NCBI GenBank assembly: GCA_009829735.1
Contig: CM020619.1
Location: 21,880,671-21,944,670, forward strand
Direction: 5' to 3'
Source: Pyropia yezoensis
Taxonomy: Eukaryota; Rhodophyta; Bangiophyceae; Bangiales; Bangiaceae
Length of the DNA: 64,000 bases
The translations under genes and the position numbers were made by a program. A model generated the notes under the pieces. That model did not search any database. It saw nothing but the letters and a program-made list of their open reading frames with translations, and was not told the origin of the DNA. Positions 8,878-62,830 of this stretch are shown here, in pieces; the first letter of the stretch is position 1; each line of letters starts with the position of its first letter.

Positions 8878-9346
8878 TGTGGCAAAAACCACTCGAACAC
8901 ACGACACCCAAGTTGGGGCGGTGTACAAGGGCTGCCTCCCGTGTCGGGGGAACCGAAAGAAGTGCAAGTCGCACACACTCTGTCCCTGTTGTGGGGCAAA
9001 CCCCCCACTGACAAACAAGAAGATGGTGTGTGGGCCAACAGTTTCTTGGTCGGGACGGGGACGCAGGGCCAAGCCCCGCTGTCCCTCCCCATATCCCCCT
9101 AGGGTCCCCTCAGAACCTCGCCACTCAGAATCTCCCACCCCAGCACCTGCCCACCGGGCCACACGAAAATTCAAGACGAGAAATGCAGAAAACCCTCAAA
9201 TCCAAGTTGGATTTACTACTAAGCTAACTATCCCAAACTTAGGGAATATGGACCCAAATGCAGGGGGAGGAACGGATCAAGCTAGTGGCCTGCCGCCCCT
9301 TGCATGGCACGTGTTGCCCCCCTACCTGGGGGTCAATACTGCCACA
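8878..9346 (-). repeat. 3' LTR of element 1
   Basis: 469 bp. In element orientation it begins TGTGGCAGTATTGACC and ends TTTTTGCCACA, giving the canonical TG...CA ends as a 7-bp inverted repeat (TGTGGCA/TGCCACA). The element polypurine tract sits immediately inside. The antisense Cys-rich frame is open across the whole LTR. It differs from the same element's 5' LTR at many positions, so the insertion is old or the LTRs have exchanged. Confidence 0.92.
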
Positions 9347-9516
9347 TTCCCCTCTCCTCAGTTCCGACCGACCCGGTCGGCCCTGTGAGGGGGTGCGTAA
9401 ACGCACGTCTCGGCGTTGGGGGCGCGACTTGCTGTCCCCTCCGCTTGAGTACGTAACGCGGATGTGGAGGCGGTCACGTTGACCGCCCCTCTCCTCAAGC
9501 TTGCCCACTCGGCAGC

Positions 9517-11631
9517 TTGCTTTTCTCGGTTCACACTTCACCATCACCACCACCTCCCCTTCACCTTCCACGGGGCCGCCCCACGCTGGGGAGGCCACCC
9601 GTCTACCCACGATCCGAGTCCCCCTCAACTCGAGGCGGGTCTCGGGCCGCTGTAGCCAGGGCGTCTCTCCCCAACTTGGGGAGAGCCATGGCTACCCCGG
9701 GAGTGGAGACAGACTCTCTTGACGAACGTATGGAGGACACCTCCTACGGTGCAGCGCCCGCCGGGACTTCCGGCGGGGGCTCCGCGATCGCTTCGGGGGA
9801 TGGGACTCCCGCGTCACGCGGCTTTGGGTTGACGGCGGGATCTCCCCCGGAGGCGGGACAAGTTGTCCCGCGTGAGGCCTTGGGGCGGTAGTTTTACCCC
9901 GCTTGGCCTCTCTATGAGGAGGGGCTGACTGTTCTTCGCTGTGGCCGACTTGGCGCAGCGATGGGTCGGGTATGGGACCGCCTACGGGAGAAGTATCCCC
10001 GTAGCGTCGGGTTCCCTGCCGGCTTCAGGACGGACCAGTTTGCCTTCCTGGACGACGAGGAGGTCGAAGATGGACAGCGTGCCAAGGCCATGGTGGACCG
10101 CGGGGGAACTATCCCGGGTCCCGGCGACTTGCCGACCTTTACTTGGGACGCGGTGGCAACTCGCCCCCCGTACCTTCACGAGGCCGATCCGCACACTCAT
10201 CACTTTGATGTGCGGATGGAGAAGGACTTCCGGCGAGGTCCCTACTTGGTGACCTCGGCTCAACTTGAATTCCCTCAGCAGTCTCCTGCCAGTAAGGAGC
10301 AATACTATCCGAAGAAGCCCGAGTGGTTGCCTCAAGTTGAGGTCCCCTACGGGTTCCCGGCGTTGCTGCCACGGTTGCTTGACCACTTCGGCGCCGTCAT
10401 GTTGACGGCTGGCCCTGATCATCTGGTGTGGGCCATGTTGGCCACCCAGTGGCTTCTCGAGGTCATGTCGACCTGGGTGTCTTGTGTTCAGCGGCGGGAG
10501 ATGCTCTGGCACCTCCCCCTCCGGCTTATCCAAGGTCTGGAACAGCTCACCCCTCAGCTAGTTGCTGAGGGGTGCTCATCAGGACAACTCACTCTACTTG
10601 AGGAGATGCTCCGCCTTCACAAGTTTATCGAGTGGGAGAGCATTGAGCACAAGTTGCGCCGCCCCACTCGTAGGCCCAAGGACGATGGCGCACTTCGCCA
10701 GTTCGTCTGGGTCGCTCGTGAACTTTACGACGGCCGTGTGGTCCTACGCGAGGGGTTGGGCATCGGGGACTACCCAAATGCCCCGGGAGTGGATCGCCAC
10801 GCTGCGCCACCCCCGGACAAGCCCATAGTTATGGCCGTGCCCTCATATGATGACCATATGTCTCAACCCACTGCGGGGGCCCCAAGTCGGGGTCGCAGTT
10901 ACACCCGGGTACCGCCACCTCGGCGGGCCCCTCCGCTTCCTCCTGTTCCTTTCCAACCTCACGGGAACATCCCGATCAGCGTGGCCGTGGAGTCTTCCAC
11001 CCCGGTGTCCCCCAACTTGGGGGCCACCCTCCTGACGGTATACCCCAAGTTGGTGTTGCCGCCCACGCCTCTAACCTCAGAGATGATGATCACCACGTTG
11101 GTGCGCACCATTTCCTGGTTGGCCGCGTCGACCGCAACCCTTCAAACTTCCGAGACTCCTCAACTTGAGGAGCGCGCTCGTACTGCAGTGGAAACCGCGA
11201 GTTGCGAGTCGGTGGCGGAGTTTATGACGGCCGAGTTGGCTCGCATAGGGGCTATTATGCCCCAGCCAGCCCCACTTGGGCGTTGCAAACGTCGTGCGAG
11301 CCGGGCATACTCGCCTCCTCGCCGTCGTCGCCGACGCTCGCGGCGCTCTTCCTCCGTGTCCGAAGACGAGCTGTCTTACTCCGTCTCGGAGTCCTCGACT
11401 CCGTCAGAGTCGGAGTCGGTCCGGCGTCTGCGTCGCCAACTTGCGCGCAAGACTGAGCAGAAGAGCAGCCGCGGTCATCGCCACTTGCGCGACCGTGAGA
11501 GGCGCGACGGTTCCGACTTGGAGTCGCCGGCCCCGCCGACTGGTGGGGAGCGTTATCGCCGTGGGTCTCGCCGCTCGTCTCCACGTGAGGGCGAGGGCCG
11601 TGGGGTCGGAGAGTCTAGAATGCATGCCTAG
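9517..11631 (+). pseudogene. Opposite-strand ORF of element 1 (aORF), one internal stop
   Basis: This ORF lies between pol and the 3' LTR but points the other way, convergent with pol. About 705 codons if read from 9517; a second conserved Met is at 9688. The only lesion seen is TAG at 9889-9891, where element 3 has TGG, leaving an intact 556-aa frame from 9961. The N-terminal part is acidic (ETDSLDERMEDTSYG). The middle is predicted globular with FRTDQFAFLDDEEVED, DPHTHHFDVRMEKDF and LLEEMLRLHKFIEWESIEHK. The C-terminus is Arg/Ser-rich (RRRRRRSRRSSSVSEDEL, then ESESVRRLRRQLARK), like an SR or nuclear basic region. I do not recognise a family. The same ORF occurs in elements 2 and 3, so it belongs to the element. 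Confidence 0.8.
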
Positions 11632-11742
11632 TTGGCAGCTGCCTTTGTTGTGAGAGTGTGAGGGTTAGGGCTGTAGTTAAAAGCCACTCTGCGTACCACT
11701 TCGAGTTAAAGCACTCTCTTGGCACTGTTGCTCGGCCTTCCC

Positions 11743-14700
11743 TCACGTTGAGGGGGGGCTGTTAGGGTCAATCTCATTCCGGGCACAGTATGCCTGGACC
11801 CTCTCAGCGAGAAGGTCCTCCACATACTCCCACGTATCATCCTTGGCTTTGTAGCCAAACCAACGCACCCTCAACATGAGGCGGTCAGTGTCCTCATCCC
11901 AGCCGTGGTCGATGAACATATCCAACACGTACTCCTGCGGGCCCTGTTTGGCCGCAGGCAGTGAGGGGAGGCGCCACGCTTCCAACGCACGCGCCCAAGC
12001 TGGGTCGCCTGCAGGCGGTGGTGCAACTTTGACCACGTCCTGTCCGTTCACTGTGCGGACCCCATCGTCACTTTCGATGGTGAAGCGCCGCCCATCAGTA
12101 CGAAGGACCTGTTACGGCCCCTTCGTCTGGAATACCAACATACCGCCAGTTGGGGTGTGCGAGTGAACCAGTACCCAGTCACCCTGCTCGGGGACATGCT
12201 TAGCATTGCGCACCTTTTTGTCAAAGGTACGCTTGTAGCGCTTTTGTGCTTTGTCCATCTCAGCCCTGACTTTAGGGATGAGGTGTTCAAGCCTAGCAGC
12301 GAACTCCGCCTTACTCTCAGTAGGAGTAGGCGTACTGCCACCATCCTCCCTAGTTGGGAGCGACCGCCGCACAGCAATAGACCGCACGCGACGGGGGGTC
12401 ACAAAAGCGAGGGGTACTTCCCCGGTAGATGAGTGAACCTGCGAATTGTAGGCAGTAGTAAGAATAGAAATGTATTGGTCCCACGTCTTCACGTGCTCAC
12501 TCACATAGTGGCGCAGCTGCCTAACAATAGTTTTGTTGAAGCGCTCCACCTGCCCATTAGTTTGTGGGTGGTAGAAGGTAGCATAGTTTGCCTTAACCCC
12601 CAACATGTCCAGCACTCCCTGAAACAGTACAGACGCAAATTGCGGTCCATTGTCCGACAGTGTACTATCTGGGATGCCATACGCGGCAGCCCAGTGATCT
12701 AGGAAGGCTGACACGACCGACATGGCCGTGATCTCTGCCAGTGGGATCGCTCGCGTAAGTTTCGTGAAGCGGTCACAGATGACCAGGAGGTACTGGTTGC
12801 CCTCCTCGGTCACTGGCAGTGGCCCAAGAATGTCCATCGCCAACGCGGCGAAGGGCTCCTTGGCCGGGAACAATAGCATAGCCGTACTAGGCCGCCGTTC
12901 CATCAGACGATTCTGTGCACAACTTGTGCAGGCAGCCACCCAACTGTAGATGTCCACCACCATGGACGGCCAGTAGTACCTGGTCCTCAGGGTCTGGTAC
13001 AGTTTACTAGACCCCAGGTGTCCACCTGTGGGAGCGTTATGCTCCCTCTCAAGGATACTGCCCTTGAGGGATGCGGGGACGACAAGTTGTTCGGTCATCT
13101 GGAATACCCCCCTCCTCATGAGGAGGCCATCGTCTCCCAGGAAGAACCGCGTCTCCGCCACTGTATCCAGTGTATCCCTCTGTGACTTGCAGAAGGAGTC
13201 CTCGGCCTGGGCCTTCACCACCTCGTCCAGGGACAGGGGCAAGTACTTCTTGTTCCCTGGCGCCTCGGAGTTCAACGCCTGACCCGAGCGCGTGACTATC
13301 CCCACGATGGGAATGTCATCGTCGACTGGGCTAGTGTCCAGCCCCTCGGTGGGTACCCGAGAGAGGCCGTCGGCAAGGGCATGTTGCCTACCAGGTCGGT
13401 ACTCAATATCAAAGTTGAAGGGTGCCAGTCGCAACCTCCTCCTGTTCAGGCGTGTGTTCGTACAGTCCGTCTTAAAGATGAACTGCAACGCGCGGTGGTA
13501 GTGGCAGTATTGACCCCCAGGTAGGGGGGCAACACGTGCCATGCAAGGGGCGGCAGGCCACTAGCCTGATCCGTTCCTCCCCCTGCATTTGGGTCCATAT
13601 TCCCTAAGTTTGGGATAGTTAGCTTAGTAGTAAATCCAACTTGGATTTGAGGGTTTTCTGCATTTCTCGTCTTGAATTTTCGTGTGGCCCGGTGGGCAGG
13701 TGCTGGGGTGGGAGATTCTGAGTGGCGAGATTCTGAGGGGACCCTGGGGGGATAAGGGGAGGGACAGCGGGGCTTGGCCCTGCGGCCCCGTCCCGACCAA
13801 GAAACTGTTGGACCACACACCATCCTCTTGTTTGTCCGTGGGGGGTTTGCCCCACTACAGGGACAGAGTGTGTGCGACTTGCACTTCTTCCGGTTCCCCC
13901 GACACGGGAGGCAGCCCTGGCACACCGCCCCAACTTGGGTGCCGTGTGTGCTTGTGGTTTTTGCCACAGTGGTCACAGCGGATATGGAACTTTTCACCCT
14001 CCAGGTAGTGACGAAGTAACGTCACCGCCCACACCACTGCGAGTCCTTCCAACTCGGTGACTCCGTAGTTCTTCTCGGCCGAGTTCAGCCCCTTGCTAAA
14101 GTATCCCACCGGCAATTACTCCTTGTCCGGCTGCTGCTGAAGCAACACACAACCAAGTTGGTCGTAGCTAGCGTCCACACCCAGGATGTAGTGGCCTCCC
14201 AACCTGGGAATAGCCAGGATAGGGGGCTTCAGCAGAAGGTCCCGAAGAGTCTCAAAGGATTCCTGCTCCACCCGACTTGGGGGAGGCAGGTTCTTCGGGA
14301 GAGTTGAGCTCACTAACTCATTCAACGGCTTTGCCACCTTGGCGAAGCCCTTGGTGAAACGTCGGTACACGTTACACATCCCGAGGAAGCTCCTCATCTG
14401 GGTCTGGCTCCGGGGGTACTGAGCCTTACGGATGGCCCTCAAGTTCTTCTCGTTGACGCTGAGACGCCCCGGACGGACAACATGTCCCAAGTATTCTACC
14501 TCTTGAGTGAAGAGGTGGCACTTACTCGCTTTCAGTGACACACCGGCGTCAGCAAGTAGCTTGAACACCTGGCCAAGATGGCCAATGTGCTCCTCCGGAC
14601 TTCGGGAGAACACAATGATATCGTGTAGGTACACAAGACAGATCTGCCACCGTACTCCGGCCAGAATCATGTCCATAGCGCGCTGGAAAGTTGCCGGCGC

Positions 14701-16200
14701 GTTACACAGTCCAAACGGTAGTCGTTTGCACTGGTAGGTACCACAGTGACAGGTAAAGGTAGTTTTATGCCTGTCTTCCGGGGCAATGGGAATTTGCCAG
14801 TACCCCGCGTTACAGTCTAGGGTAGAGAACACGTTCGCCTCCCCCAGAGAGTCTAGACAGTCGTCCATCCTAAGGAGGGGATAACTATCCTTCACCTTGC
14901 TCTCGTTGAGCTTACGGTAGTCGATACAGAACCGTGGGGTCCCATCAACTTTGGGGACAATGACCACCGGACTCGCCCACTCGGCGTTGCTGGCCTCGAT
15001 CACATCGAGGGCCTTCATGCGAGCAACTTGCTCCTTAACGAGGGCCCTTGAACGGGGTCCTCCCCTATACGGTTGTTGGCGTATAGGGGGTGCACCGGGC
15101 TTCGACTCCATCCGGTGTTGGGTAGCTCTCATGAGTCCCAATTGACCATCCCACAACGTGTGATATTGGTCCAAGAGGCGTTCAACTTGAACCCTCAACC
15201 TGGGGGGAACACCCTCCATGTTCACATGGGGCCGAGGAGAGGCGGCCGACTTGGCTTGGTGCTTCTCCTTTCCAGACTTCGGGTCGCTACTCGTGCCCTC
15301 GTTGAGGGTGACCGCTACTACCGGTCCCTCGTGTTGGTCGATGTCGCCAAACTTGGCTCCCGACTTGAACTACTTGGGCGACGAGCTCAGGTTCATCACC
15401 TGGATCCTCCACGGGACTCCGGCTTTGGAGTCCATCGTGCCAAGGGCAACATGCACTTGGTGCTTGCGAGCAAGACGGGGGTAAGGGTGCACCAACCAGT
15501 TCCCCGTATAATCAGTTACAACGTCAACGTGCGCCACCGAGTTGGGGGGCAACGTGACTTTACGGGCTCAACGCAGGGTAGCAGTAAACCCTTCCCTCAC
15601 AGAGCAAACAGGCTTCGACTGTGAGACTGTCACAGGAGCCACAGACTTTCTCTTACCAAGGATGGGGATAGTCTCACCATTCATCAACTTGACCTAGTAC
15701 TCAGGGCCACAAATCAAAGGCACATGTGTAACAACATAAGGGGTACCCAGAAGCAGGGGTACCGATACATTCTCAACTACACCATAGGTCACGTCGACCT
15801 CATGGGTCCCCAACCTAGGTGGTAGGGTCACGGCACCAACGATGGGAAGTACCCCACCATTGATGTCAATCATATGGTCAGCTTTGGACCTCCAGCGTTG
15901 GAGCTTCACCTCCTTTGGTAATAGCGACTTGCGTATCAAGGAGGCTCCTGACCCGGTATCAAGTACGATACGGGCACAACAGGCGCGACCGGGGGCAAGT
16001 TGCACACGTCCAGCCACCTGGAAGTTCTCACCCGTCAGCACCGCGATGACCCGACGTGGGTTTACGTTCTTGGGGAGTCCTACCCGAGGTGGGCGGACTC
16101 CCTTAGGTCGCCGCAGTATCCGGCAGGGTTGGTTCGTCCTCTTGGCCCACTTGGCCGAGGATGCCGTTGTGAGCTTAAAACGGCCAGCTCCAACGGTCAT
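11743..16200 (-). pseudogene. pol of element 1 (PR-RT-RNase H-IN-chromodomain), inactivated
   Basis: The start ATG at 16200 overlaps the gag stop (ATGA). Domains in order: aspartic protease with LDTGSGASLIRK; RT with FCIDYRKLNES and LPFGLCNAPATFQRAM; RNase H with DASYDQLGCVLLQQ; integrase with an HHCC-type zinc region (ACTSCAQNR), MDILGPLP and LSDNGPQFAS; and a C-terminal chromodomain (RLMLRVRWFGYKAKDDTWEY). The RT catalytic motif reads YLHD rather than YLDD, predicting loss of polymerase activity. Stops terminate the frame near 15694, 15370, 14116 and 12112, mostly at Tyr or Trp codons, and a solo LTR splits RNase H from integrase. Chromodomains in this position define chromoviruses and guide insertion in known members. 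Confidence 0.92.
13500..13968 (+). mobile_element. Solo LTR inserted in pol of element 1
   Basis: 469 bp, opposite in orientation to the host element. It is flanked by the 5-bp direct repeat GTGGT (13495-13499 and 13969-13973). Compared with element 2, the empty site is one copy of that pentamer in the RNase H coding sequence. The first base is A instead of T. This is the cleanest evidence that the family makes 5-bp target duplications, and it shows that LTR-LTR recombination has removed a full copy here. The antisense Cys-rich frame is open throughout. Confidence 0.93.
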
Positions 16201-18139
16201 TCGTTTCCCGCCGACTTGGCGTCCGAATCTGAGGGCGGGGAGGAAGACGACGAGTCCGAGGACGACGTGTCCGCCTCCTCCGCCGAGGGTGTGGCGACCG
16301 CGACGACCGATCGAGACCCACCCTCGCGGCGTAAACGTACTTCGTTCGTAGCCGACTTCTTACTCGCATTCCTAACAAGTTGTTGGATGCGTTTACTCAA
16401 CTTGGGGCAATCATATGCCCAGTGTCCATCGGAGTTGCAGTTCCATCACCGATTGTCTGTTCCTGGAGGGGTCTTCCCGACTGGGGAAGACGAAAAGGTA
16501 CCCTGGGAAGTTCCCACGGCAGCTACCACCCTCTCCTTGCGGATTCGGCGTGCCTCTCGTAGCTCTCTGGCTCGGCGCGCCTCCTCCCGTTCCTTGGCCA
16601 ACTCGGCTTGACGCTCCTGGCGTTGTTCCTCTCGCAACTTGCGGTAGGCCTCGCCTCTGCGGTAGGCGAACCTAGCCAACTCCGCCAGGGTCGCCCGGGC
16701 AGTGTTATGCTCCCGGCTCTCCATCCGGACTGACCAATGGAGTCCCTCCACAAACCGACTCTTCACCACAGCTTGTGGATGAAGAAACCCACAAAGATTG
16801 TTGAGCTTACGGACTCGCTCCGCAAAGGACAACTCGTCCTCCGCCTCTTCCTGATGGCCTGCGTAAACTCCTCGACTTGAGAAGCCAACGCCGCTTCATC
16901 AACCATGGCCCTGAACAACCAGTTGACGAGCTCCAAATAGGACGTCACCTCCCCAGCGCCTCCACTTGAGGACCTGGGCATGACGGACATAAGTTCTGTC
17001 CGGAGGTCGCCCTTGGTAAGCTCCTGTAGCATATAGAAAGCCATGCCCTCACTTATGGCATTCTCACAGGCTTTTGTGAACCGACGTAGAAACTCAAAGA
17101 CACGGCGGGGGGGAGTTCCATCCCACTCCGCTTTGTGCCCAAAAGAGTGAAGTGCATTCTTCTTGGCACGGCCCATAGCTCGGGCCTGGTCAGGACCATA
17201 CGCCACCGACTTGTTGTGGAGGGCGTAGGTCTCACAGTCAAAGATCCTCTGGTAGACCGGGTTGGCTACCTGGATCTTGGGCGCCACCTCACGTTGAGAG
17301 AAAAGCCGCTGAGGCAATGGGGTGAGCTGACGCGCAGTGCCTATCGTCTGCTGCGGCGAGCTTGGTGTAGCCACCGGCGTTTCCGAGGGGAACTCCCCCG
17401 TGAAGGGCGTGCGCCCCACTGAGAATGGTGTGGCTCCCTCGTTGGGAGTCACAGGTGTCGCCCCTTGTTTGGGGCGACCCGAGATAGGCGTGAGGAGGGA
17501 TTCCCCCTGCGCCTGCGGGCTCGAAAGCCCCGATCCGGTCTGGACATTAAGGCCATCTGGCAAACTCGCCACAGTCTGATTCAGAATAGTATTCGTCATC
17601 GTGACCACCAGGTCCGGCAAAGTCTGCCGCAACACATTGGTCGCCTCCCGACGGACAGTTTCCGCGAGGAGTGGGTTGACGACTCCAGTTGAGTCTCGGT
17701 CCGCCTCCGGGAGTCCACCTGAGGGGTAACCACGTTCCTCAGGGGTCTCAACCGGGGGCATGGGCGCGAGCCAATCGCCGACCAACGGAGGTCCGCCGTC
17801 CTCCAAAAGCCTAGTTGGCGACGGCTCCAAGCCAAAGCTGGCTCCAACACGAGTGGATCCCGCGGGGACAGTCCTCACCCCTTGGGACGTTCCCGTTGAG
17901 TGTACCACACGGTGGCCAGACTTCGGCCCACCCACATCAGAAGTGTCACCCGAATGAACTCCCGACTGAGTCGGGGTGGTCTGTTGCCCGCCCGCACTTC
18001 CAGTCCTGCTGGCTTGAGGGACCTCCAGTCCCTCTGCGACCCCAGGTCAACCCACTTGTGTCTCACCAGTATTCAAAGGCACTGAAGTACGTGCGTCACC
18101 CGTGTACTCCCCGGACGACGGGGGGTCCGAACTAGCCAT
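16197..18139 (-). pseudogene. gag of element 1, inactivated
   Basis: The ATG at 18139 opens MASSDPPSSGEYTGDAR. The long middle is a capsid-like region (IQVANPVYQRIFDCETYALH onward), followed by a charged helical stretch (RKLREEQRQERQAELAKERE), a CCHC zinc knuckle and a Ser/Asp-rich tail ending GNE. Lesions: an early TGA near codon 32, a frameshift near 16860, and TGA replacing the first zinc-knuckle Cys (element 3 keeps CWNCNSDGHWAYDCP). The early TGA and the knuckle TGA are shared with element 2. The gag stop overlaps the pol start as ATGA. Confidence 0.88.
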
Positions 18140-18238
18140 GTTGGCTGAAGATCCGTATGACACGGTCCAAGTCCACCGTTCCTGTGAGACAGAGGGCCCC
18201 CTACACCCGGGTGCACCCGGAGGTAAAGTTTACCTCTG

Positions 18239-18256
18239 TCCCCTACTGCTCCACCA
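18239..18256 (-). other. Primer-binding site of element 1
   Basis: TGGTGGAGCAGTAGGGGA on the minus strand, two bases inside the 5' LTR. It begins with TGG as expected for pairing with a tRNA 3' CCA end; the matching tRNA was not identified. The three elements share this site (TAG/CAG variant in the middle). Confidence 0.7.
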
Positions 18257-18258
18257 AA

Positions 18259-18727
18259 AGTGGCCAAAACCACTCGCACACGCTACACCCAAGCTGGGGC
18301 GGTGTACAAGGGCTGCCTCCCGTGTCGGGGGAACCGGAAGAAGTGCAAGTCGCACACACTCTGTCCCTGTTGTGGGGCAATCCTCCCACTGACAAAAAAG
18401 AAGATGGTGTGTGGGCTAACAGTTTCTTGGTCGGGACGGGGAAGCAAGGCTAAGCCCCGCTGTCCCTCCCCTTATCCCCCTAGGGTCCCCTCAGAATCTC
18501 GCTACTCAGCATCTCCCACCCCAGCACCTGCCCACCGGGCCACACGAAAGTTCAAGACGATAAATGCAGAAAACCCTCAAATCCAAGTTGGATTTACTAC
18601 TAAGCTAACTATCCCAAACATAGTGAATATGAAACCAAATGCAGAGAGAGTAACTGATCAGGCTAGTGGCCTGCCGCCCCTTGCATGGCACGTGTTGCCC
18701 CCCTACCTGGGGGTGAGTACTGCTACA
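18259..18727 (-). repeat. 5' LTR of element 1
   Basis: 469 bp. Its end is slightly mutated (GGCCACT instead of GCCACA). It shares several variants with the facing LTR of element 2, for example CATAGTGAATATGAAACC (the others have a CTTAGGGAATATGGACC-type sequence). It is therefore closer to that LTR than to its own 3' LTR. Confidence 0.9.
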
Positions 18728-18755
18728 CTGTGGCTCTGCCTCTCGTGGTGGAGAG
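18728..18755. other. 28-bp spacer between facing elements 1 and 2
   Basis: Runs from CTGTG to GAGAG. Its reverse complement, with one difference, stands directly upstream of element 3 at 53428-53455. Relative to the left flank of element 1 (8831-8877, which continues at 53386-53455 without inversion), this spacer is inverted. Confidence 0.85.
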
Positions 18756-19224
18756 TGTGGCAGTATTGACCCCCAGGTAGGGGGGCAACACGTGCCATGC
18801 AAGGGGCGGCAGGCCACTAGCCTGATCAGTTACTCTCTCTGCATTTGGTTTCATATTCACTATGTTTGGGATAGTTAGCTTAGTAGTAAATCCAACGTGG
18901 ATTTGAGGGTTTTCTGCATTTATCGTCTTGAATTTTCGTGTGGCCCGGTGGGCAGGTGCTGGGGTGGGAGATGCTGAGTGGCGAGATTCTGAGGGGACCC
19001 TAGGGGGATAAGGGGAGGGACAGCGGGGCTTGGCCCTGCGTCCCCGTCCCAACCAAGAAACTGTTGGACCGCACACCATCCTCTTGTTTGTCAGTGGGAG
19101 GATTGCCCCACAACAGGGACAGAGTGTGTGCGACTTGCACTTCTTCCGGTTCCCCCGACACGGGAGGCAGCCCTTGTACACCGCCCCAGCTTGGGTGTAG
19201 CGTGTGCGAGTGGTTTTGGCCACT
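18756..19224 (+). repeat. 5' LTR of element 2
   Basis: 469 bp, starts TGTGGCAGTATTGACC, ends GGCCACT. It faces the element 1 LTR across 28 bp, forming a nearly 1-kb palindrome. The antisense Cys-rich frame is open (minus strand, 19223 to 18723). Confidence 0.9.
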
Positions 19225-19226
19225 TT

Positions 19227-19244
19227 TGGTGGAGCAGTAGGGGA
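19227..19244 (+). other. Primer-binding site of element 2
   Basis: TGGTGGAGCAGTAGGGGA, two bases after the 5' LTR; identical to that of element 1. Confidence 0.7.
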
Positions 19245-19343
19245 CAGAGGTAAACTTTACCTCCGGGTGCACCCGGGTGTAGGGGGCCCTCTGTCTCACA
19301 GGAACGGTGGACTTGGACCGTGTCATACGGATCTTCAGCCAAC

Positions 19344-19861
19344 ATGGCTAGTTCGGACCCCCCGTCGTCCGGGGAGTACACGGGTGACGCACGTACTTCA
19401 GTGCCTTTGAATACTGGTGAGACACAAGTGGGTTGACCTGGGGTCGCAGAGGGACTGGAGGTCCCTCAAGCCAGCAGGACTGGAAGTGCGGGCGGGCAAC
19501 AGAGGCACACCGAATCCGCAAGGAGAGGGTGGTAGCTGCCGTGGGAACTTCCCAGGGTACCTTTTCGTCTTCCCCAGTCGGGAAGACCCCTCCAGGAACA
19601 GACAATCGGTGATGGAACTGCAACTCCGATGGACACTGGGCATATGAATGCCCCAAGTTGAGTAAACGCATCCAACAACTTGTTAGGAATGCGAGTAAGA
19701 AGTCGGCTACGAACGAAGTACGTTTACGCCGCGAGGGTGGGTCTCGATCGGTCGTCGTGGTCGCCACACCCTCGGCGGAGGAGGCGGACACGTCGTCCTC
19801 GGACTCGTCGTCTTCCTCCCCGCCCTCAGATTCGGACGCCAAGTCGGCGGGAAACGAATGA
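19344..19861 (+). pseudogene. gag of element 2, large internal deletion
   Basis: Starts at the conserved ATG (19344) and has the same early TGA as element 1. At about 19501 it jumps from the ...GSAGGQQ region to the charged region just before the zinc knuckle, losing roughly 1.4 kb that elements 1 and 3 keep. The first Cys codon of the knuckle is TGA, as in element 1. The Ser/Asp-rich tail and the ATGA overlap with pol are intact. Confidence 0.88.
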
Positions 19862-24308: not shown

Positions 24309-24403
24309 CAGTGCCAAGAGAGTGCTTTAACTCGAAGTGGTACGCAGAGTGGCTTTTAACTACAGCCCTAACCCACACACTCTCACAACAAGGCAGCTGC
24401 CAA

Positions 24404-26649: not shown

Positions 26650-27075
26650 GCAAGGGGCGGCAGGCCACTAGCCTGACCCGTTCCTCCCCCTGCACTTGGG
26701 TCCATATTCCCTAAGTTTGGGATAGTTAGCTTAGTAGTAAATCCAACGTGGATTTGAGGGTTTTCTGCATTTATCGTCTTGAATTTTCGTGTGGCCCGGT
26801 GGGCAGGTGCTGGGGTGGGAGATTCTGAGTGGCGAGATTCTGAGGGGACCCTGGGGGGATAAGGGGAGGGACAGCGGGGCTTGGCCCTGCGTCCCCGTCC
26901 CGACCAAGAAACTGTTGGCCCACACACCATCTTCTTGTTTGTCAGTGGGGGGATTGCCCCACAACAGGGATAGAGTGTGTGCGACTTGCGCTTCTTCCGG
27001 TTCCCCCGACACGAGAGGCAGCCCTTGCGCACCGCCCCAACTTGGGTGTAGCGTGTGCGAGTGGTTTTTGACACG
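26607..27075 (+). repeat. 3' LTR of element 2
   Basis: 469 bp, starts TGTGGCAGCATTGACC and ends TTTTTGACACG (mutated TGCCACA). Polypurine tract GAGGAGAGGGGAC immediately precedes it. The antisense Cys-rich frame is open (27134 to 26553 on minus). Confidence 0.92.
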
Positions 27076-31203: not shown

Positions 31204-31273
31204 GCATGACAGGGACCCCAATGATCCCGTCCACGAAGATCTCGGCGTCGATTGAGCAGAACTGCCAGAGACA

Positions 31274-40876: not shown

Positions 40877-40974
40877 TGATGATGTTTTGTGTTTGATTGG
40901 TAGGTTTCAAGGGGGGCGAACGCGCTGCGGCAAAGAACCTCTGCATGAACGTCACGCTCTTTTTTGTCACTCGG

Positions 40975-49958: not shown

Positions 49959-49960
49959 TA

Positions 49961-53327: not shown

Positions 53328-53387
53328 TGTGGCAGTATTGACCCACAGGTAGGGGGCCAACACGTGCCATGCAAGGGGCGGCAGGCC
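53328..53387 (+). repeat. LTR fragment at the left end of the nested insertion
   Basis: The first ~60 bp of the 469-bp LTR (TGTGGCAGTATTGACCCACA...), joined at GGCAGGCC to the 70-bp segment 53386-53455, after which the complete 5' LTR of element 3 begins. Either the left LTR of the insertion carries a partial duplication, or two copies recombined here. Confidence 0.75.
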
Positions 53388-53455
53388 CTGTCCCGTGAGG
53401 TCTCCATCGATTCTCGAGTACGTCGCCCTCTCCTCCACGAGAGGCAGAGCCACAG

Positions 53456-53924
53456 TGGAGCAGTACTGACCCCCAGGTAGGCGGGCAACACGTGCCATGC
53501 AAGGGGCGGCACGCCACTAGCCTGACCCGTTCCTCCCCCTGCATTCGGGTCCATATTCCCTAAGTTTGGGATAGTTAGCTTAGTAGTAAATCCAACTTGG
53601 ATTTGAGGGTTTTCTGCATTTATCGTCTTGAATTTTCGTGTGGCCCGGTGGGCAGGTGCTGGGGTGGGAGATTCTGAGTCGCGAGATTCTGAGGGGACCC
53701 TGGGGGGATAAGGGGAGGGACAGCGGGGCTTGGCCCTGCGTCCCCGTCCCGACCAAGAAACTGTTGGACCACACACCATCTTCTTGTTTGTCCGTGGGGG
53801 GATTGCCCCACAACAGGGATAGAGTGTGTGCGACTTGCACTTCTTCCGGTCCCCCCGACACGGGAGGCAGCCCTAGCACACCGCCCCAACTTGGGTGCCG
53901 TGTGTGTGAGAGGTTTTTGCCACA
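53456..53924 (+). repeat. 5' LTR of element 3
   Basis: 469 bp, starts TGGAGCAGTACTGACC (variant of TGTGGCAG) and ends TTTTTGCCACA. Left flank is CACAG. This is the one LTR copy in which the antisense Cys-rich frame is interrupted, by a TAG just before its Cys motif (near 53872). Confidence 0.9.
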
Positions 53925-53926
53925 TT

Positions 53927-53944
53927 TGGTGGAGCAGCAGGGGA
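53927..53944 (+). other. Primer-binding site of element 3
   Basis: TGGTGGAGCAGCAGGGGA, two bases after the LTR, complementary to a tRNA 3' end of the form ...CTCCACCA. Confidence 0.7.
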
Positions 53945-54043
53945 TAGAGGTAAACTTTACCTCCGGGTGCACCCGGGTGTAGGGGGCCCTCTGTCTCAGA
54001 GGAACGGTGGACTTGGACCGTGTCATACGGATCGTTAGCCAAC

Positions 54044-55990
54044 ATGGCTAGTTCGGACCCCCCGTCGTCTGGGGAGTACACGGGTGACGCACGTACTTCA
54101 GTGCCTTCGAATACTGGTGAGACACAGGTGGGTTTACTTGGGGTCGCAGAGGGACTAGAGGTCCCTCAAGCCAGCAGGACTGGAAGTGCGGGCGGGCAAC
54201 AGGCCACCCCGACTCAGTCGGGAGTTCATTCGGGTGACACTTCTGATGTGGGTGGGCCGAAGTCTGGCCACCGTGTGGTACACTCAACGGGAACGTCCGA
54301 AGGTGAGAGGACTGTCCCCGCGGGATCCACTCGGGTTGGAGCCAACTTTGGCTTGGAGCCGTCGCCAACTAGGCTTTCGGAGGACGGCGGACCTCCGTTG
54401 GTCGGCGATGGCCTCGCGCCCATGCCCCCGGTTGAGACCCCTGAGGATCGTGGTTTCCCCTCAGGTAGACTCCCGGAGGCGGACCGAGATTCAACTGGAG
54501 TCGTCAATCCACTCCTCGCGGAAACTGTCCGTCGGGAGGCGACCAATGTGTTGCGGCAGACTTTGCCGGACCTGGTGGTCACGATGACGAATACTATTCT
54601 GAATCAGATTGTGGCGAGTTTGCCAGATGGCCTTAATGTCCAGACCGGATTGGGGCTTTCGAGCCCGCAGGCGCAGGGGGAATCCCTCCTCACGCCAATC
54701 TCGGGTCGCCCCGAACAGGGGGGGACCCCTGTGACTCCCAACGAGGGAGCCACACCATTCTCGGTGGGGCGTACGCCCTTCACGGGGGAGTTTCCCTCGG
54801 AAACGCCGGCGGCTACACCAAGCTTGCCGCGCCAGACTACAGGCACTGAGGGTCAACTTACCCCAGTGCCTCAGCGGCTTTTCCCTCGACGTGAGGTGCC
54901 GCCCAAGATCCAGGTAGCCAACCCGGTCTACCAGAGGATCTTTGACTGTGAGACCTACGCCCTCCACAACAAGTCGGTGGCGTATGGTCCTGACCAGGCC
55001 CGAGCCATGGGCCGTGCCAAGAAGAATGCACTTCACTCTTTTGGGCACAAAGCGGAGTGGGATGGAACTCCCCCCCTCCGTGTCTTTAAGTTCCTACGTC
55101 GTTTCACAAAAGCCTGTGACGACAATGCCATAAGTGAAGGCATGGCTTTTTACATGCTACAGGAGTTTACAAAGGGCGACCTGCGGACAGAACTTATGTC
55201 CGTCATGCCCAGTTCCTCAAGTGGAGGCGCTGGTGAGGTGACGTCCTATTTGGAGCTCGTCAACTGGTTGTTGAGAGCCATGGTGGATGAAGCAGCGTTG
55301 GCTTCTCAAGTCGAAGAGTTTACGCAAGCCCATCAGGAAGAGGCTGAGGACGAGTTGTCCTTTGCGGAGCGAGTTCGTAAGCTCAACAATCTTTGTGGGT
55401 TTCTTCATCCACAAGCTGTGGTGAAGAGTCGGTTTGTGGAGGGACTCCATTGGTCAGTCCGGATGGAGACCCGGGAGCATAACACTGCCCGGGCGACCCT
55501 GGCGGAGTTGGCTAGGTTCGCCTACCGCAGAGGTGAGGCCTACCGCAAGTTGCGGGAGGATCAACGCCAGGAGCGTCAGGCCGAGTTGGCCAAGGAACGC
55601 GAGGAGGCGCGCCAGGCAAGAGAGCTGAGAGAGGCACGCTGAATCCGCAAGGAAAGGGTGGTAGCTGCCGTGGGAGCTTCCCAGGGTACCTCTTCGTCTT
55701 CCCCAGTCGGGAAGACCCCTCCGGGAACTGACAATCGGTGTTGGAACTGCAACTCCGATGGACACTGGGCATATGATTGCCCCAAGTTGAGTAAACGCAT
55801 TCAACAACTTCTTGAGAATGCGAGTAGGAAGTCGGCTACGAACGAAGTACGTTCACGCCGCGAGGGTGGGCCTCGACCGGTAGTGGCGGTCGCCACACCC
55901 TCGGCGGAGGGGGCGGACACGTCGTCCTCAGACTCGTCGTCTTCCCCTTCGCACTCAGATTCTGACGCCTTGTCGGAGGGAAACGAATGA
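54044..55990 (+). pseudogene. gag of element 3, one internal stop
   Basis: 649 codons from MASSDPPSSGEYTGDAR. N-terminal half Pro/Ser/Thr/Gly-rich; capsid-like core at about residues 290-480 (ANPVYQRIFDCETYALHNKS; KGDLRTELMSVMP; HPQAVVKSRFVEGLHWSVRM); a charged helix; a CCHC zinc knuckle CWNCNSDGHWAYDCP; a Ser/Asp tail ending GNE. TGA at 55640-55642 (CGA in elements 1 and 2) is the only stop seen. The terminal TGA (55988-55990) overlaps the pol ATG (55987). Confidence 0.9.
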
Positions 55991-58900
55991 CCGTTGGAGC
56001 TGGCCGTCCGAGGCTCACAACGGCAGCCTCGGCCAAGTGGGTTAAGAGGACGAACCAACCCTGCCGGATACTGCGGCGACCTAAGGGAGTCCGCCCACCT
56101 CGGGTAGGACTCCCCAAGAACGTAAACCCACGTCGGGTCATCGCGGTGCTGACGGGTGAGAACTTCCAGGTGGCTGGACGGGTGCAACTAGCCCCCGGCC
56201 GCGCCTGTTGTGTCCGTATCGTACTTGATACCGGGTCAGGAGCCTCCTTGATACGCAAGTTGCTATTACCAAAGGAGATGAAGCTCCAACGCTGGAGGTC
56301 TAAAGCTGACCATCTGATCGATATCAATGGTGGGGTACTTCCCATCGTTGGTGCCGTGACCCTACCAACTAGGTTGGGAACCCATGAGGTCGACGTGACC
56401 TATGGAGTAGTTGAGAATATATCGGTACCCCTGCTTCTGGGTACCCCTTATGTTGTAAATCAAGTGCCTTTTACTTGTGGCCCTGAGTATTGGGTCAAGT
56501 TGATGAATGGGGAGACCATCCCCATCCTTGGTAAGGGAAAGTCTGTGGCTCCTGTGACAGTCTCACAGTCGAAGCCTGTTTGCTCTGTGAGAGAACGGTT
56601 TACTGCTACCCTGCGTTAAGCCCGTAAATCACGTTGCCCCCCAACTCGGTGGCGCACGTTGACGTTGTAACCGATTATACGGGGAACGGGTTGGTGCACC
56701 CTCACCCCCGGCTTGCTCGCAAGCACCAAGTGCATGTTGCCCTTCGCACGATGGACTCCAAAGCCGGAGTCCCGTGGAGGATGCAGGTTATGAACCTGAG
56801 CTCGTCGCCCGAGTACTTCAAGTCGGGAGCCAAGTTCGGCTATATCGACCAACATGAGCGACCGGTAGTAGCGGTCACCCTCAACGCGGGCGCGAGTAGC
56901 GACCCGAAGTCCGGGAAGGAGAAGCATCAAGCCAAGTCGGCCGCCTCTCCTCGACCCCATGTGAACATGGAGAGTGTTCCACCCAGGTTGAGGGTTCAAG
57001 TTGAACGCCTCTTGGACCAATATCACAAGTTGTGGGATGGTCAATTGGGACTCATGAGAGCTACCCAACACCGGATCGAGTTGAAACCCGGTGCACCCCC
57101 TATACGCCAACAACCGTATAGGGGAGGACCCCGATCAAGGGCCCTCGTGAAGGAGCAAGTCGCTCGCATGGAGGCCCTCGATGTGATCGAGGCCAGCAAC
57201 GCCGAGTGGGCGAGTCCGGTGGTTATCGTCCCCGAAGTTGATGGGACCCCACGGTTCTGTATCGACTACCGTAAGCTCAACGAAAGCACGGTGAAGGACA
57301 GTTATCCCCTACCTAGGATGGACGACTGTCTGGACTCTCTGGGGGAGGCAAACGTGTTCCCTACCCTGGACTGTAACGCGGGGTACTGGCAAATTCGCAT
57401 TGCCCCGGAAGACAGGCATAAAACTACCTTTACCTGTCACTGTGGTACCTACCAGTGCAAGCGTCTACCGTTTGGTCTGTGTAACGCGCCGGCAACTTTC
57501 CAGCGCGCTATGGACATGATTCTGGCCGGAGTACGGTGGCAGATCTGTCTTGTGTACCTAGACGATATCATTGTGTTCTCCCGACGTCCGGAGGAACACG
57601 TTGGCCATCTTGGCCAGGTGTTCAAGCTACTTGCTGACGCCGGTGTGTCACTGAAGGCGAGTGAGTGCCACCTCTTCACCCAAGAGGTGGAATACGTAGG
57701 ACATGTTGTCCGTCCGGGGCGCCTCAGTGTCAACGAGAAGAACTTGAGGGCCATTCGCAAGGCTCAGTACCCCCGGACCCAGACCCAGATGAGGAGCTTT
57801 CTCGGGATGTGTAACGTGTACCGACGTTTCACCAAGCGCTTCGCCAAGGTGGCGAAGCCGTTGAATGAGCTAGTTAGCTCAACGCTACCGAAGAACCTGC
57901 CTCCCCCAAGTCGGGTGGAGCAGGAATCCTTTTGAGACTCTTCGGGACCTTCTGCTGAAGCCCCCTATCTTGGCTATACCCAGGTTGGGAGGCCACTACA
58001 TCCTGGATGTGGACGCTAGCTACGACCAACTTGGTTGTGTGTTGCTTCAGCAGCAGCCGGACAAGGAGTACTTGCCGGTGAGATACTTCAGCAAGGGGCT
58101 GAGCTCCACTGAGAAGAACTACGGAGTGACCGAGTTGGAAGGACTCGCAGTGGTGTGGGCGGTGACGTCACTTCGTCACTACCTAGAGGGTGAGAAGTTC
58201 CTCATCCGCTGTGACCACCGCGCGTTGCAGTTCATCTTCAAGACGGATTGTACGAACACTCGTCTCAACCGGTGGAGGGTGCGACTGGCACCCTTCAACT
58301 TTGATATTGAGTACCGACCTGGCAGGCAACATGCCCTAGCCGACGGCCTTTCTCGGGTACCTACCGAGGGGCTGGACACTAACTCAGTCGATGAGGACAT
58401 CCCCATCGTGGGGGTAGTCACGCGCTCGGGTCAGGCGTTGAACCCCGAGGCGCCAGGGAACAAGAAGTACTTGCCCCTGTCCCTGGACGAGGTGGTGAAG
58501 GCCCAGGCCGAGGACCCCTTCTGCAAGTCGTAGAGGGATACGCTGGATACGGTGGCGGAGACGCGGTTCTTTATCGGAGACGATGGCCTCCTCATGAGGA
58601 GGGGGGTATTCCAGGGGACCGAACAACTTGTCGTCCCCGCATCCCTCAAGGACAGTATTCTTGAGAGGGAGCATAACGCTCCCACAGGTGGACACCAGGG
58701 ATCTGGTAAACTGTACCAGACCCTGGGGACCAGGTACTACTGGCCGTCCATGGTGGTGGACATCTACAGTTGGGTGGCTGCCTGCACAAGTTGTGCGCAG
58801 AACCGTCTGATGGAACGGCGGCCTACTACGGCTATGTTACTGTTCCCGGCCAAGGAGCCCTTTGCCGCGTTGGCAATGGACATCCTTGGGCCACTGCCAG

Positions 58901-59970
58901 TGACCGAGGAGGGCAACCAGTACCTCCTGGTCATCTGCGATCGCTTCACGAAACTTACGCGAGCGATCCCTCTGGCAGAGATCACGGCCATGTCGGTCGT
59001 GTCAGCCTTCCTAGATCACTGGGTTGCCGCGTATAGCATCCCGGATAGTACACTATCGGACAACGGACCGCAATTTGCGTCTGTACTGTTTCAGGGAGTG
59101 CTGGATATGTTGGGGGTTTTGGCAAACTATGCCACCCCTTACCACCCACAAACTAATGGGCAGGTGGAGCGCTTCAACAAAATTATTGTTAGGCAGCTAC
59201 GCCACTATGTGAGTGAGCACGTAAAAACGTGGGACCAATACATTTCTATTCTTACCACTGCCTACAATTCGCAGGTTCACTCATCTACCGGGGAAGTATC
59301 CCTCACTTTTGTGACCCCCCGTCGCGTGCGGTCTATTGCCGTGCGGCGGTCGCTCCCAACTAGGGAGGATGGTGGCAGTACGCCTACTCCTACTGAGAGT
59401 AAGGCGGAGTTCGCCGCTAGGCTTGAAAACCTCATCCCTGAAGTCAGGGCTGAGGTGGACAAAGCACAAAAGCGCTACAAGCGTACCTTTGACAAAAAGG
59501 TGCGCAATGCTAAGCATGTCCCCGAGCAGGGTGACTGGGTACTGGTACACTCACACACCCCAACTGGGGGTAAGTTGGTATTCCAGACGAAGGGGCCGTA
59601 CCAGGTCCTTCGTACTGATGGGCGGCGCTTCACCATCGAAAGTGACGATGGGGTCCGCACAGTAAACGGACAGGATGTGGTCAAAGTTGCACCACCGCCT
59701 GCAGGCGACCCAGCTTGGGCGCGGGCGCTGGAAGCGTGGCGCCTGCCCTCGCCGCCCGCGGCCAAACATGGCCCGCAGGAGTACGTGTTCGTTAAGTTCA
59801 TCGACCACGGCTGGGATGAGGACACTAACCGCCTCATGTTGAGGGTGCGTTGGTTTGGCTGTGAGGCCAAGGATGATACGTGGGAGTACGTGGAGGACCT
59901 TCCGGCTGAGAAGGTCCGGGCATACTGTGCCCGGAATGAGATAGACCCTAACAGCCCCCCCTCAACGTGA
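55987..59970 (+). pseudogene. pol of element 3 (PR-RT-RNase H-IN-chromodomain), four pieces
   Basis: Protease LDTGSGASLIRK; RT FCIDYRKLNEST, YLDDIIVFS (catalytic Asp pair kept) and LPFGLCNAPATF; RNase H DASYDQLGCVLLQQ with TELEGLAVVWAV; integrase zinc region and catalytic MDILGPLP, LSDNGPQFAS, HPQTNGQVERFNK; chromodomain RLMLRVRWFGCEAKDDTWEY. Lesions: frameshift ending the first piece at 56617-56619, a one-base insertion ending the second at 57933-57935, and TAG at 58531-58533. Ends 112 nt from the end of the convergent aORF. Confidence 0.93.
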
Positions 59971-60081
59971 GGGAGGGCCGGGTACCAGTGCCAAGAGAGT
60001 GCTTCAAGTCGAAGTGGTACGCAGAGTGGCTTTTAACTACAGCCCTAACCCTCACACTCTCACAACAAAGGCAGCTACCAA

Positions 60082-62194
60082 CTAGGCACGCATGCTAGAC
60101 TCTCCAACCCCACGGACCTCGCCCTCACGTGAAGGCGAGCGGCGAGACCCACGCCGAGAAGGTTCCCCACCAGTCGGCGGGGCCGGCGGCTGCAAGTCGG
60201 AACCGTCGCGCCCTCACGGTCGCGCAAGTGGCGACGACCGCGGCTACCCTTCTGCTTGGTCTTGCGCGCAAGTTGGCGACGCAGACGGCGGACCGACTCC
60301 GACTCTGAAGGAGTAGAGGACTCCGAGACAAAATAAGGCAACTCGTCTTCCGATACGGAGGGAGAGCGCCGTGAGCGTCGGCGACGACGGCGAGGAGACG
60401 AGTATGCCCGGCTCGCCCGACGTTTGCCGCGCCCAAGTTGGGCTGGCTGGGGCACAATAGCCCCAATGCGAGCCAACTCGGCCGTCATAAACTCCGCCAT
60501 CGACTCGCAACTCGCGGTCGCCACCGCAGTACGAACGCGCTCCTCAAGTTGAGGAGTCTCGGAAGCCTGAAGGGTCGCGTTCGACGCGGCCAACCAGGAA
60601 ATGGTGCGCACCAACGTGGTGATCATCATTTCCGAGGGCAGCGGCGTGGCCAGTAACACCAACTTGGGGTATACCGTCAGAAGGGTGGCCCCCAAGTTGG
60701 GGGACACCGGGGTGGACGACTCAACGGCCACGCTAATCGGGATGTCCCCGTGCGGCTGGTAGGGGACAGGAGGAAGTGGTGGGGCACGCCGAGGTGACGG
60801 TGCCAAGTGTAACTGCGACCCCTACTCGGGGCCCCCGCAGTGGGTTGAGTCATATGGTCATCGTGAGAGTGCACGGCCATCACTATGGCCTGGTCCGTGG
60901 GAGGCGCAGTGTGGCGATCCACCCCCGGGGCATACGGGTAGTCTCCGATGCCCAGCCCCTCTCGTAGTACCACACGGCCGTCGTGAAGTTCACGAGCGAC
61001 CCATACGAACTGGCGAAGTGCGCCATCGTCCTTGGGCCCCCGAGTGGGGCGGCGCAACTTGTGTTCGATGCTCTCTCACTCGATAAACTTGTGGAGGCGG
61101 AGCATCTCCTCAAGTAGAGTGAGTTGTCCTGATGAGCACCCCTCAGCAACTAGCTGAGGGGTGAGCTGTTCCAAACCTTGGATAAGCCGAAGGGGCAGAT
61201 GCCAGAGCATTCCCCGCCGCTGAACACCAAACACCCAGGTCGATATGACCTCGAGGAGCCACTGGGTGGCCAACATGGCCCACACCAGGTGATCAGGGCC
61301 AGCCGTCAACATGACGGAGCCGAAGTGGTCGAGTAACCGCGGTAGCAACGCATGGAACCCGTAGGGGACCTCAACTTGAGGCCACCACTCGGGCTTCTTC
61401 GGGTATTACTGCTCCATACTGGCAGCGGACTGCTGCGGAAACTCAAGTTGAGCCGATGTCACCAAGTAGGGACCTCGCCGGAGGTCCTTCTCCATCCGCA
61501 CATCAAAGTGATGAGTGTGCGGGTCAGCCTCGTGAAGGTACGTGGGGAGGGTTGCCACCGCGTCCCTGGTAAAGGTCGGCAAGTCGCCGGGACCCGGGAT
61601 AGTTCCCCCGCGGTCCACCATGGTCTTGGCCCGCTGTACGTCTTCGACTTCCTCATCGTCCAAGAAGGCAAACTGGTCCGTCCTGAAGCCGGCAGGGAAC
61701 CCGACCCTACGGGGATACTTCTCCCGTAGGCGGTCCCATACCCGGCCCATCGCTGCGCCAAGTCGGCCAGAGCGAAGAACAGTCAGCCCCTCCTCATACA
61801 GAGGCCAAGCGGGGTAAAACCACCGCCCCAAGGCCTCACGCGGGACAACTTGTCCCGCCTCCGGGGGAGACCCCGCCGTCAACCCAAAGCCGGGCGACGC
61901 GGGAGTCCCGTCCCCCGGAGCGATCGCGGAGCCCCCGCCGGAAGTCCCGGCGGGTGCTGCCCCGTATGAGGTGTCCTCCATGCGCTCGTCAAGAGAGTCC
62001 GTCTCCACTCCCGGGGTCGCCATGGCTCTCCCCAAGTTAGGAAGAGACGCCCTGGTTGCAGCGGCACGAGACCCGCCTCGAGTTGAGGGGGGCGCGGATC
62101 GTGGGTAAATGGGTGGCCTCCCCAGCGTGGGGCGGCCAAGAGGAAGGTGAAGGGGATGTGTTGGTGATGGTGAAGTGAGAACCGGGGAGAGCAA
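60082..62194 (-). pseudogene. Opposite-strand ORF of element 3 (aORF), broken
   Basis: Conserved from LGRPTLGRPPIYPRS through ETDSLDERMEDTSYG, FRTDQFAFLDDEEVED, DPHTHHFDVRMEKD and LLEEMLRLHKFIE to the Arg/Ser tail (RRRRRRSRRSPSVSEDEL). It reads through the position where element 1 has TAG. Stops at 61406 and 61076 and a frameshift near 60800 break it. Orientation and position between pol and the polypurine tract match elements 1 and 2. Confidence 0.8.
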
Positions 62195-62348
62195 GCTGCC
62201 GAGTGGGCAAGCTTGAGGAGAGGGGCGGTCAACGTGACCGCCTCCACGTCCACGTTACGTACTCGAGGGGGGACAGCAAGTCGCGCCCCCAACGCCGAGA
62301 CGTGCGTTTACGCACCCCCTCACAGGGCCGACCGGGTCGGTCGGAACT

Positions 62349-62361
62349 GAGGAGAGGGGAG
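62349..62361 (+). other. Polypurine tract of element 3
   Basis: GAGGAGAGGGGAG immediately before the 3' LTR, the expected plus-strand primer. Equivalent tracts are at 26594-26606 (element 2) and 9347-9359, minus strand (element 1). All three are preceded by inverted repeats (GGCGGTCA...TGACCGCC and CCGACC...GGTCGG). Confidence 0.75.
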
Positions 62362-62830
62362 TGTGGCAGTATTGACCCCCAGGTAGGGGGCCAACACGTG
62401 CCATGCAAGGGGCAGCACGCCACTAGCCTGACCCGTTCCTCCCCCTGCATTCGGGTCCATATTCCCTAAGTTTGGGATAGTTAGCTTAGTAGTAAATCCA
62501 ACTTGGATTTGAGGGTTTTCTGCATTTATCGTCTTGAATTTTCGTGTGGCCCGGTGGGCAGGTGCTGGGGTGGGAGATTCTGAGTGGCGAGGTTCTGAGG
62601 GGACCCTGGGGGGATAAGGGGAGGGACAGCGGGGCTTGGCCCTGCGTCCCCGTCCCGACCAAGAAACTGTTGGACCACACACCATCTTCTTGTTTGTCCG
62701 TGGGGGGATTGCCCCACAACAGGGATAGAGTGTGTGCGACTTGCACTTCTTCCGGTCCCCCCGACACGGGAGGCAGCCCTTGCACACCGCCCCAACTTGG
62801 GTGTCGCGTTTGTGAGAGGTTTTTGCCACA
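62362..62830 (+). repeat. 3' LTR of element 3, with open antisense Cys-rich frame
   Basis: 469 bp, TGTGGCAGTATTGACC to TTTTTGCCACA. On the opposite strand a frame is open from 62847 to 62320 across the whole LTR and encodes GCLPCRGDRKKCKSHTLYPC, with Cys spacing resembling a small zinc site. It reads toward the aORF. Confidence 0.92.

Follow-up and report, generated by a model that had tools for sequence, protein, structure and literature searches.

Family-specific arrays of short perfect hairpins along Ty3/gypsy retrotransposons of the red alga Pyropia yezoensis

Several systems are known in which short nucleic-acid signals recur along a viral or mobile genome. The dispersed RNA packaging signals of MS2, picornaviruses and hepatitis B virus are numerous short stem–loops that differ in their stems, share a feature of the loop and are scattered over a protein-coding genome (PMC6281560). 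In persistent RNA viruses, genome-scale ordered RNA structure (GORS) covers the whole coding genome. Self-complementary loops also occur in retroelement RNA, as in the dimerisation and packaging loops of retroviruses and Ty1. The known loops of this kind are few and lie near the 5′ end. At the DNA level, the motifs bound by VANC anti-silencing proteins of VANDAL transposons are dense, lie inside the mobile element and differ between families; the sites of VANC21 are a fixed 9-mer in a single orientation, lying for the most part in non-coding DNA and tandem repeats (PMC5735166). Plant Retand Ty3 elements carry an antisense open reading frame (ORF), TRP28, between pol and the 3′ long terminal repeat (LTR), and the words hairpin and stem-loop are absent from the main text that describes them (PMC11963269). 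Here we describe hairpin arrays in a 64,000-nucleotide stretch of the Pyropia yezoensis genome (contig CM020619.1, forward-strand positions 21,880,671 to 21,944,670; hereafter the window), which holds three copies (E1, E2 and E3) of one Ty3/gypsy LTR-retrotransposon family, family E. The genome has 65% GC and many LTR retrotransposons (PMC7423979).

The arrays resemble each of these systems in part. Dispersed stem–loops with a shared recognition feature, the trait of packaging signals, occur in family E and in two further families of the same genome, L022 and III, and family IV has no shared feature. Unlike packaging signals, the arrays seem to ignore G·U pairing, have near-symmetric centres, lack a consensus in one family and are carried by LTR retrotransposons, where capsid binding is putative; unlike GORS, they are discrete perfect hairpins with a spacer fixed for each family and Watson–Crick pairs only. 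It is the Watson–Crick-only pairing and the near symmetry that depart from these two nearest ideas. In contrast to VANC21 sites, the arms vary and covary, the centres are family-specific, and hairpins occur in every frame of pol as well as in the antisense ORFs. Like Retand, the hairpin families have an antisense ORF in the interval from pol to the 3′ LTR, but the three scanned (E, L022 and III) gave no match to the TRP28 domain PF04195 (E up to 1). Unlike the retroviral and Ty1 loops, the hairpins of E3 number about 70 over its whole length. No report of element-wide hairpin arrays in LTR retrotransposons was found in open-licence full texts, mostly judged by listings, and the novelty rests on the array pattern, not on a proven mechanism.

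From a heptamer to a hairpin class

The initial annotation had singled out the heptamer CAASTTG, with 22 sites in E3 (53458–62830, plus strand) where about one would be expected by chance. All 22 are present, two per LTR and 18 internal, and their coordinates hold apart from one mistyped position (55793, which should read 55783). Dinucleotide shuffles of E3 gave a mean of 1.55 and a maximum of 5 among 60, and the reversed pattern GTTSAAC, counted as a control, occurs twice. The motif occurs 24 times in E1 (8878–18729, minus strand, nested LTR counted), 13 times in E2 (18754–27080, plus strand) and 64 times in the whole window against 6.75 expected, a count reached by none of 100 dinucleotide shuffles. 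The annotation undercounted the sequence between the element groups, where 27081–53457 has 5 sites and not three (shuffles 2.65, maximum 6). Eleven loci sampled as presumed ordinary DNA, 109.5 kb in all, have 9 sites versus 10.0 in shuffles; one of them, L027, has a 40-residue pol-like match. Complementarity does extend beyond the heptamer, by at least one pair at 19 of the 22 E3 sites and by at least two at 15, and the sites are spread over all reading frames, so that protein sequence does not explain them. CAASTTG did not stand out in a k-mer test against Markov expectation, since the shorter words within it are enriched as well.

CAASTTG belongs to a wider class, within which it is the case whose centre is itself self-complementary. 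Perfect inverted repeats with a 5-nt spacer number 124, 50, 21 and 12 in E3 for arms of at least 4, 5, 6 and 7 bp, against 41.7, 10.8, 2.8 and 0.7 expected from base composition. As a second control we used 40 far spacers (20–59 nt) within the same DNA. With arms of at least 5 bp they gave a mean of 12.8 and a maximum of 22, versus the 50 observed; at minimum arm lengths of 6 and 7 bp the means were 4.0 and 1.2. The AASTN centres of the family follow the pattern R-A-S-T-N, with a preferred C–G closing pair, and 70 AASTN-like hairpins (arms of at least 4 bp) are placed in the LTRs, gag, pol and 3′ region of E3 at a mean spacing of 132.5 nt. At 207 RASTN places, the first four flanking pairs are Watson–Crick in 55, 47, 54 and 42% (26% expected), with no similar rise beside RASTN in the rest of the window. 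When right-hand bases were shuffled among the 115 AASTN places of E3, keeping column composition, the arms proved to covary with z values of 6.9, 8.4, 8.9 and 5.4 for the first four pairs; the RASTY places of L022 gave 3.5, 5.1, 6.1, 3.8 and 5.3. GASTC is a site in L022 and not in E3. The one-base variants that had been taken for decayed sites were in part misread, as AAGTC and AACTA centres have conserved arms and look functional. Chance, base composition and dinucleotide content are ruled out as causes of the arrays by the shuffles and the control spacers.

Families, coding constraint and turnover

Twenty 10-kb stretches were sampled along contig 1. The L022 family, whose Pol is 67% identical to that of E, has RASTC centres with spacers of 5–9 nt, sometimes off-centre, and 24–45 repeats per spacer (arms of at least 5) against a control of 12.3 (maximum 22). 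Family III (L028, L021, L029 and part of L019; Pol 41–45% identical to E in long matches) has a 4-nt G-NYRN-C centre and, at the same minimum arm length, 107 repeats versus 13.9 in the control (maximum 21). In family IV (L025 with L039), spacers of 2–5 nt have 17–30 such repeats each over 4 kb, versus 4.2 (maximum 8). Centre length is family-specific, with a consensus in three of the four hairpin families. Arms are mostly of 4–8 bp, and the hairpins extend across gag, pol and the antisense ORF, in E also into the LTRs. No hairpin excess was found in seven pooled host loci (L017, L023, L024, L027, L030, L031 and L032), and two Copia elements have no hairpin arrays. L036, a partial relative with 84% reverse transcriptase identity, shows a weak excess at spacers 6 and 8 only, and the pieces of L016 and L027 are too short or without excess. 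A search for relatives in IMG/VR gave one pattern match and none confirmed.

A fifth Ty3 family, V (L019:3200–7585), lacks the excess, although its Pol is 54% identical to that of L022 over 414 residues and a Gag-type knuckle is present; the trait is therefore dispensable or was gained repeatedly. This stretch has two long open frames of 644 and 762 residues and adjoins a hairpin-dense piece of family III, which makes it a natural control. Two further observations concern repeats in the sample. Tandem repeats of about 638 nt (L022:8297–9975) adjoin the L022 element, and three RVT_2 (Copia) matches of equal score lie exactly 5010 bases apart at C1:23419940, 23424950 and 23429960 of G000, which suggests a tandem array of Copia elements.

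The hairpins overlie coding sequence to an extent that codon choice does not account for. Under synonymous-codon shuffling, motif hairpins numbered 17 versus 1.25 (maximum 7 of 500) in E pol, 8 versus 0.32 (maximum 3) in L022 pol, and 8 versus 0.45 and 6 versus 0.30 in the antisense ORFs of E and L022, above every shuffle in all four ORFs, and the centres start 6, 5 and 6 times in the three reading frames. The motif-free count in the L022 antisense ORF (5-nt centre, arms of at least 5) showed no excess, with 3 versus 2.84. In family III the corresponding shuffles gave 43 hairpins versus 5.4 in pol and 29 versus 5.3 in the antisense ORF; in family IV they gave 93 versus 21.4 in pol and 34 versus 16.8 in the antisense ORF, the last barely above the maximum of 33 among 200. 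Protein or codon constraint is thereby ruled out as the cause of the motif hairpins in the four ORFs of E and L022 and of the hairpins in the ORFs of III and IV. Compared with L022 pol, E-pol residues under stems are less conserved than the others (48/88 versus 524/765, p = 0.012), so that the arrays could come at the expense of protein sequence, or else lie at places where the protein tolerates change.

Stems tend to diverge less than control sequence. With chance hairpins of even spacer length as controls, 11 of 12 E copies, which are not independent of one another, show fewer stem differences from E3, with p < 0.05 in 6; examples are L033 (5/422 versus 50/991) and L004 (2/270 versus 32/583), but L013 has 11/240 versus 31/695. 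Compensatory double changes among the E copies are few. Between L028 and L021 of family III, differences fall at 8/673 stem positions, 16/237 in control stems, 30/266 in centres and 331/4562 in the rest, and stems compare with controls as 43/774 versus 40/304 for L028–L029 and 4/208 versus 15/134 for L029–L019. Individual sites, by contrast, turn over while density is kept. With 572/847 residues identical, E pol (L008) and L022 pol have 16 and 12 motif hairpins and a single position in common, where TGCAC-aagtt-GTGCA corresponds to TGCGC-aactt-GCGCA, pairs and centre both changed. An E antisense-ORF remnant at L019:1928–2620, 78% identical, is without intact hairpins, and several of its sites resemble decayed E hairpins.

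Strand symmetry, candidate readers and competing explanations

The structure and conservation of the arrays are direct observations, and the pairs are held to Watson–Crick rules on both strands. Among stems with one internal mismatch in the four families, G·T occurs 102 times and A·C 126 times (controls 50.7 and 63.6). As RNA function alone should favour G·U, and G·T is favoured no more than A·C, plain RNA stem–loops are a poor fit. The centres are nearly reverse-complement symmetric, although this alone proves little, since host hairpin loops are symmetric too; together with the mismatch counts, it also fits poorly with a fixed-sequence site in double-stranded DNA. Kissing loops, prompted by the complementarity of AAGTT and AACTT, find no parallel in family III, whose centres are not mutually complementary in that way.

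It is possible, if somewhat less likely than not, that the arrays form a new cis-acting code of retrotransposons, in which both strands of a whole 9–10 kb element, coding sequence included, would be selected for tens to more than 100 short perfect hairpins; the centre would be set by the family and would change with a cognate element-encoded reader, and sites would come and go. As to mechanism, the explanation we favour, while thinking it rather doubtful and only inferring its reader and function, is that both strands fold as hairpins to which an element-encoded protein binds over the length of the molecule. Each strand would be selected to fold while single, first as genomic RNA and then as minus-strand complementary DNA (cDNA) after RNase H, and binding all along the molecule could package, condense or protect genomic RNA and cDNA. 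Redundancy of sites would allow density to be retained though positions turn over. The putative reader would most likely be the Gag zinc knuckle and less likely the antisense-ORF protein; each hairpin family has one CCHC Gag knuckle, each of different sequence.

A number of results weigh against this explanation. Family IV has no clear centre consensus, which argues against a single loop-reading protein, family V shows no hairpin excess, and Copia Gags carry knuckles too, yet their elements have no arrays. The reduced stem divergence is not significant in 6 of the 12 E copies, and stems show no clear conservation in L028–L019 (18/170 versus 9/75) or L028–L025 (19/60 versus 8/24). Pairs 2–3 of E3 lean to wobble (G·T 11% versus A·C 5–6%), and young copies have 13 distinct G·T events versus 6 A·C. 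The centres also have a weak sense-strand lean. In E3, AAST[ACG] has a mean of 2.34 of 4 pairs (n = 71) versus 1.67 for its reverse complement (n = 46; p = 0.009), and in L022 [ACT]ASTC has 1.87 (n = 69) versus 1.34 (n = 82; p = 0.016); three further asymmetry tests gave p of 0.055–0.11, and a flip test gave 0.032 for E3, 0.012 for L028, 0.22 for L022 and 0.32 for L025.

This lean would suit ordinary RNA packaging signals, in which Gag would bind sense-strand stem–loops in the way that has been proposed for several RNA viruses, and so would a centre consensus with variable stems dispersed through coding RNA. We nevertheless regard this explanation as improbable, given that G·U does not seem to be tolerated, with the G·T excess equal to that of A·C, and that sense RNA at the sites is no more stable than antisense beyond background.

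The antisense ORF bears on two other explanations. It is present in all four hairpin families (9892–11628, plus strand, in the window; L022:364–1980, plus; L028:1118–3478, plus; and L025/L039), which would allow for an element-encoded reader of the arrays. The E and L022 products are 34% identical over 287 residues, E and III 24% over 247 (E = 8e-8 in a one-on-one comparison), and III and IV reach only E = 0.006. Those of E, L022 and III have no Pfam match at cut-off, and the E product ends in an Arg/Ser-rich tail. The annotation had compared its motif with VANC sites. What stands of that idea is a nucleic-acid signal that is dispersed, specific to the element, independent of reading frame and conserved in many of the copies; a fixed-sequence site is not supported, since the arms vary yet match, other families have other centres and the sites lie in coding DNA. 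By the same analogy, the arrays might be anti-silencing sites in chromosomal DNA read by the antisense-ORF protein, as their element- and family-specific, dispersed and near strand-symmetric character and the conserved ORF would allow. Arms so short are unlikely to extrude as cruciforms, and a reader of double-stranded DNA cannot sense the matching of two variable arms. DNA binding is predicted for the antisense proteins of plant Retand elements (PMC11963269), but the structure model of the antisense-ORF core was unusable (mean predicted local distance difference test score, pLDDT, 44.8). We give anti-silencing about the same low standing as ordinary packaging signals.

A shield is unlikely too, though it stands a little higher than those two. 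Transcription from both sides, as the antisense ORF may imply, would place hairpins on both transcripts, where they could prevent long sense–antisense double-stranded RNA or hide the strands from small RNAs. Strict Watson–Crick pairing, near-symmetric centres and the ORF in four of four hairpin families read agree with this, and it needs no centre consensus, as in family IV. On the other hand, it leaves the family-specific consensus of the others unexplained, gag and pol of E3 are as dense as the antisense-ORF region (8.7, 6.8 and 8.8 hairpins per kb), and the arrays are thinner in the antisense-ORF part of III and IV.

The hairpins could also be a mutational product, written by intrastrand template switching of the element reverse transcriptase, each enzyme giving its own spacer length. 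Hairpins can arise and be repaired through template switching (PMC8794818), and perfect Watson–Crick arms, strand symmetry, family-specific spacers and the lower conservation of E-pol residues at stems would follow from it. There is however no sign of one arm having been rewritten from the other: an unchanged arm opposite one with at least 3 changes was seen in 0 of 14 E hairpins and, among 48 hairpins of L022, in about 4%, where the null is 5%. Reduced stem divergence with few paired changes is unexpected if the hairpins are neutral, and neither the consensus centre nor the absence of hairpins from family V is accounted for. We consider it the least probable of the explanations weighed. The insertion of dispersed tiny mobile hairpins is unsupported, as E-pol hairpins align mostly gap-free to L022 pol.

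Element organisation and significance

In the window copies of family E, RVT_1 precedes H2C2 and rve between flanking LTRs of about 467 nt. The family is numerous, with all 40 scored DNA matches at least 93% identical (1545 candidates) and all 100 scored reverse transcriptase matches at least 94% identical (4935 candidates). All E3 features lie on the plus strand unless stated. The 5′ LTR hairpin AAATCC aactt GGATTT (53588–53604), which recurs in the 3′ LTR copy (62494–62510), is followed by the leader hairpin GAGGTA aactt TACCTC (53947–53963) and by an open frame of 562 residues with the gag region and without Pfam match (53954–55639). The Gag CCHC knuckle CWNCNSDGHWAYDC (55739–55780) is followed by the CAAGTTG site at 55783. 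Reverse transcriptase (RVT_1) spans 57234–57707 and integrase (H2C2, rve) 58633–59148, with the pol hairpin CTGGTA aactg TACCAG at 58703–58719; the chromodomain-like match at the integrase end (59800–59925) is weak, at 20.4 bits against a Pfam cut-off of 25.1. The antisense-ORF region holds CTCCTC aagtt GAGGAG (60540–60556) and an open antisense frame of 282 residues (61409–62254, minus strand). The longest E3 hairpin, with 11-bp arms, is CACCCCTCAGC aacta GCTGAGGGGTG (61137–61163), and another is CGGGAC aactt GTCCCG (61841–61857). The antisense ORF of E1 is open for 579 residues between pol and the 3′ LTR, opposite to pol, and has no Pfam match at cut-off. E1 also contains a nested solo LTR (13501–13969, plus strand; ends TGTGGCA...TGCCACA) with a 5-bp target duplication, GTGGT, identified by eye; this single insertion, again by eye, is not at a hairpin, which lends no support to hairpins as an integration target.

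The case carries a caution for motif searches, in which a single representative of a structural class can pass for a fixed binding site. Should the idea of selection on both strands be correct, the arrays would be a dense second code superimposed on protein coding. They would then also make it possible to test how retroelements label nucleic acid of their own, with four families of different centres and a fifth without arrays in one genome.

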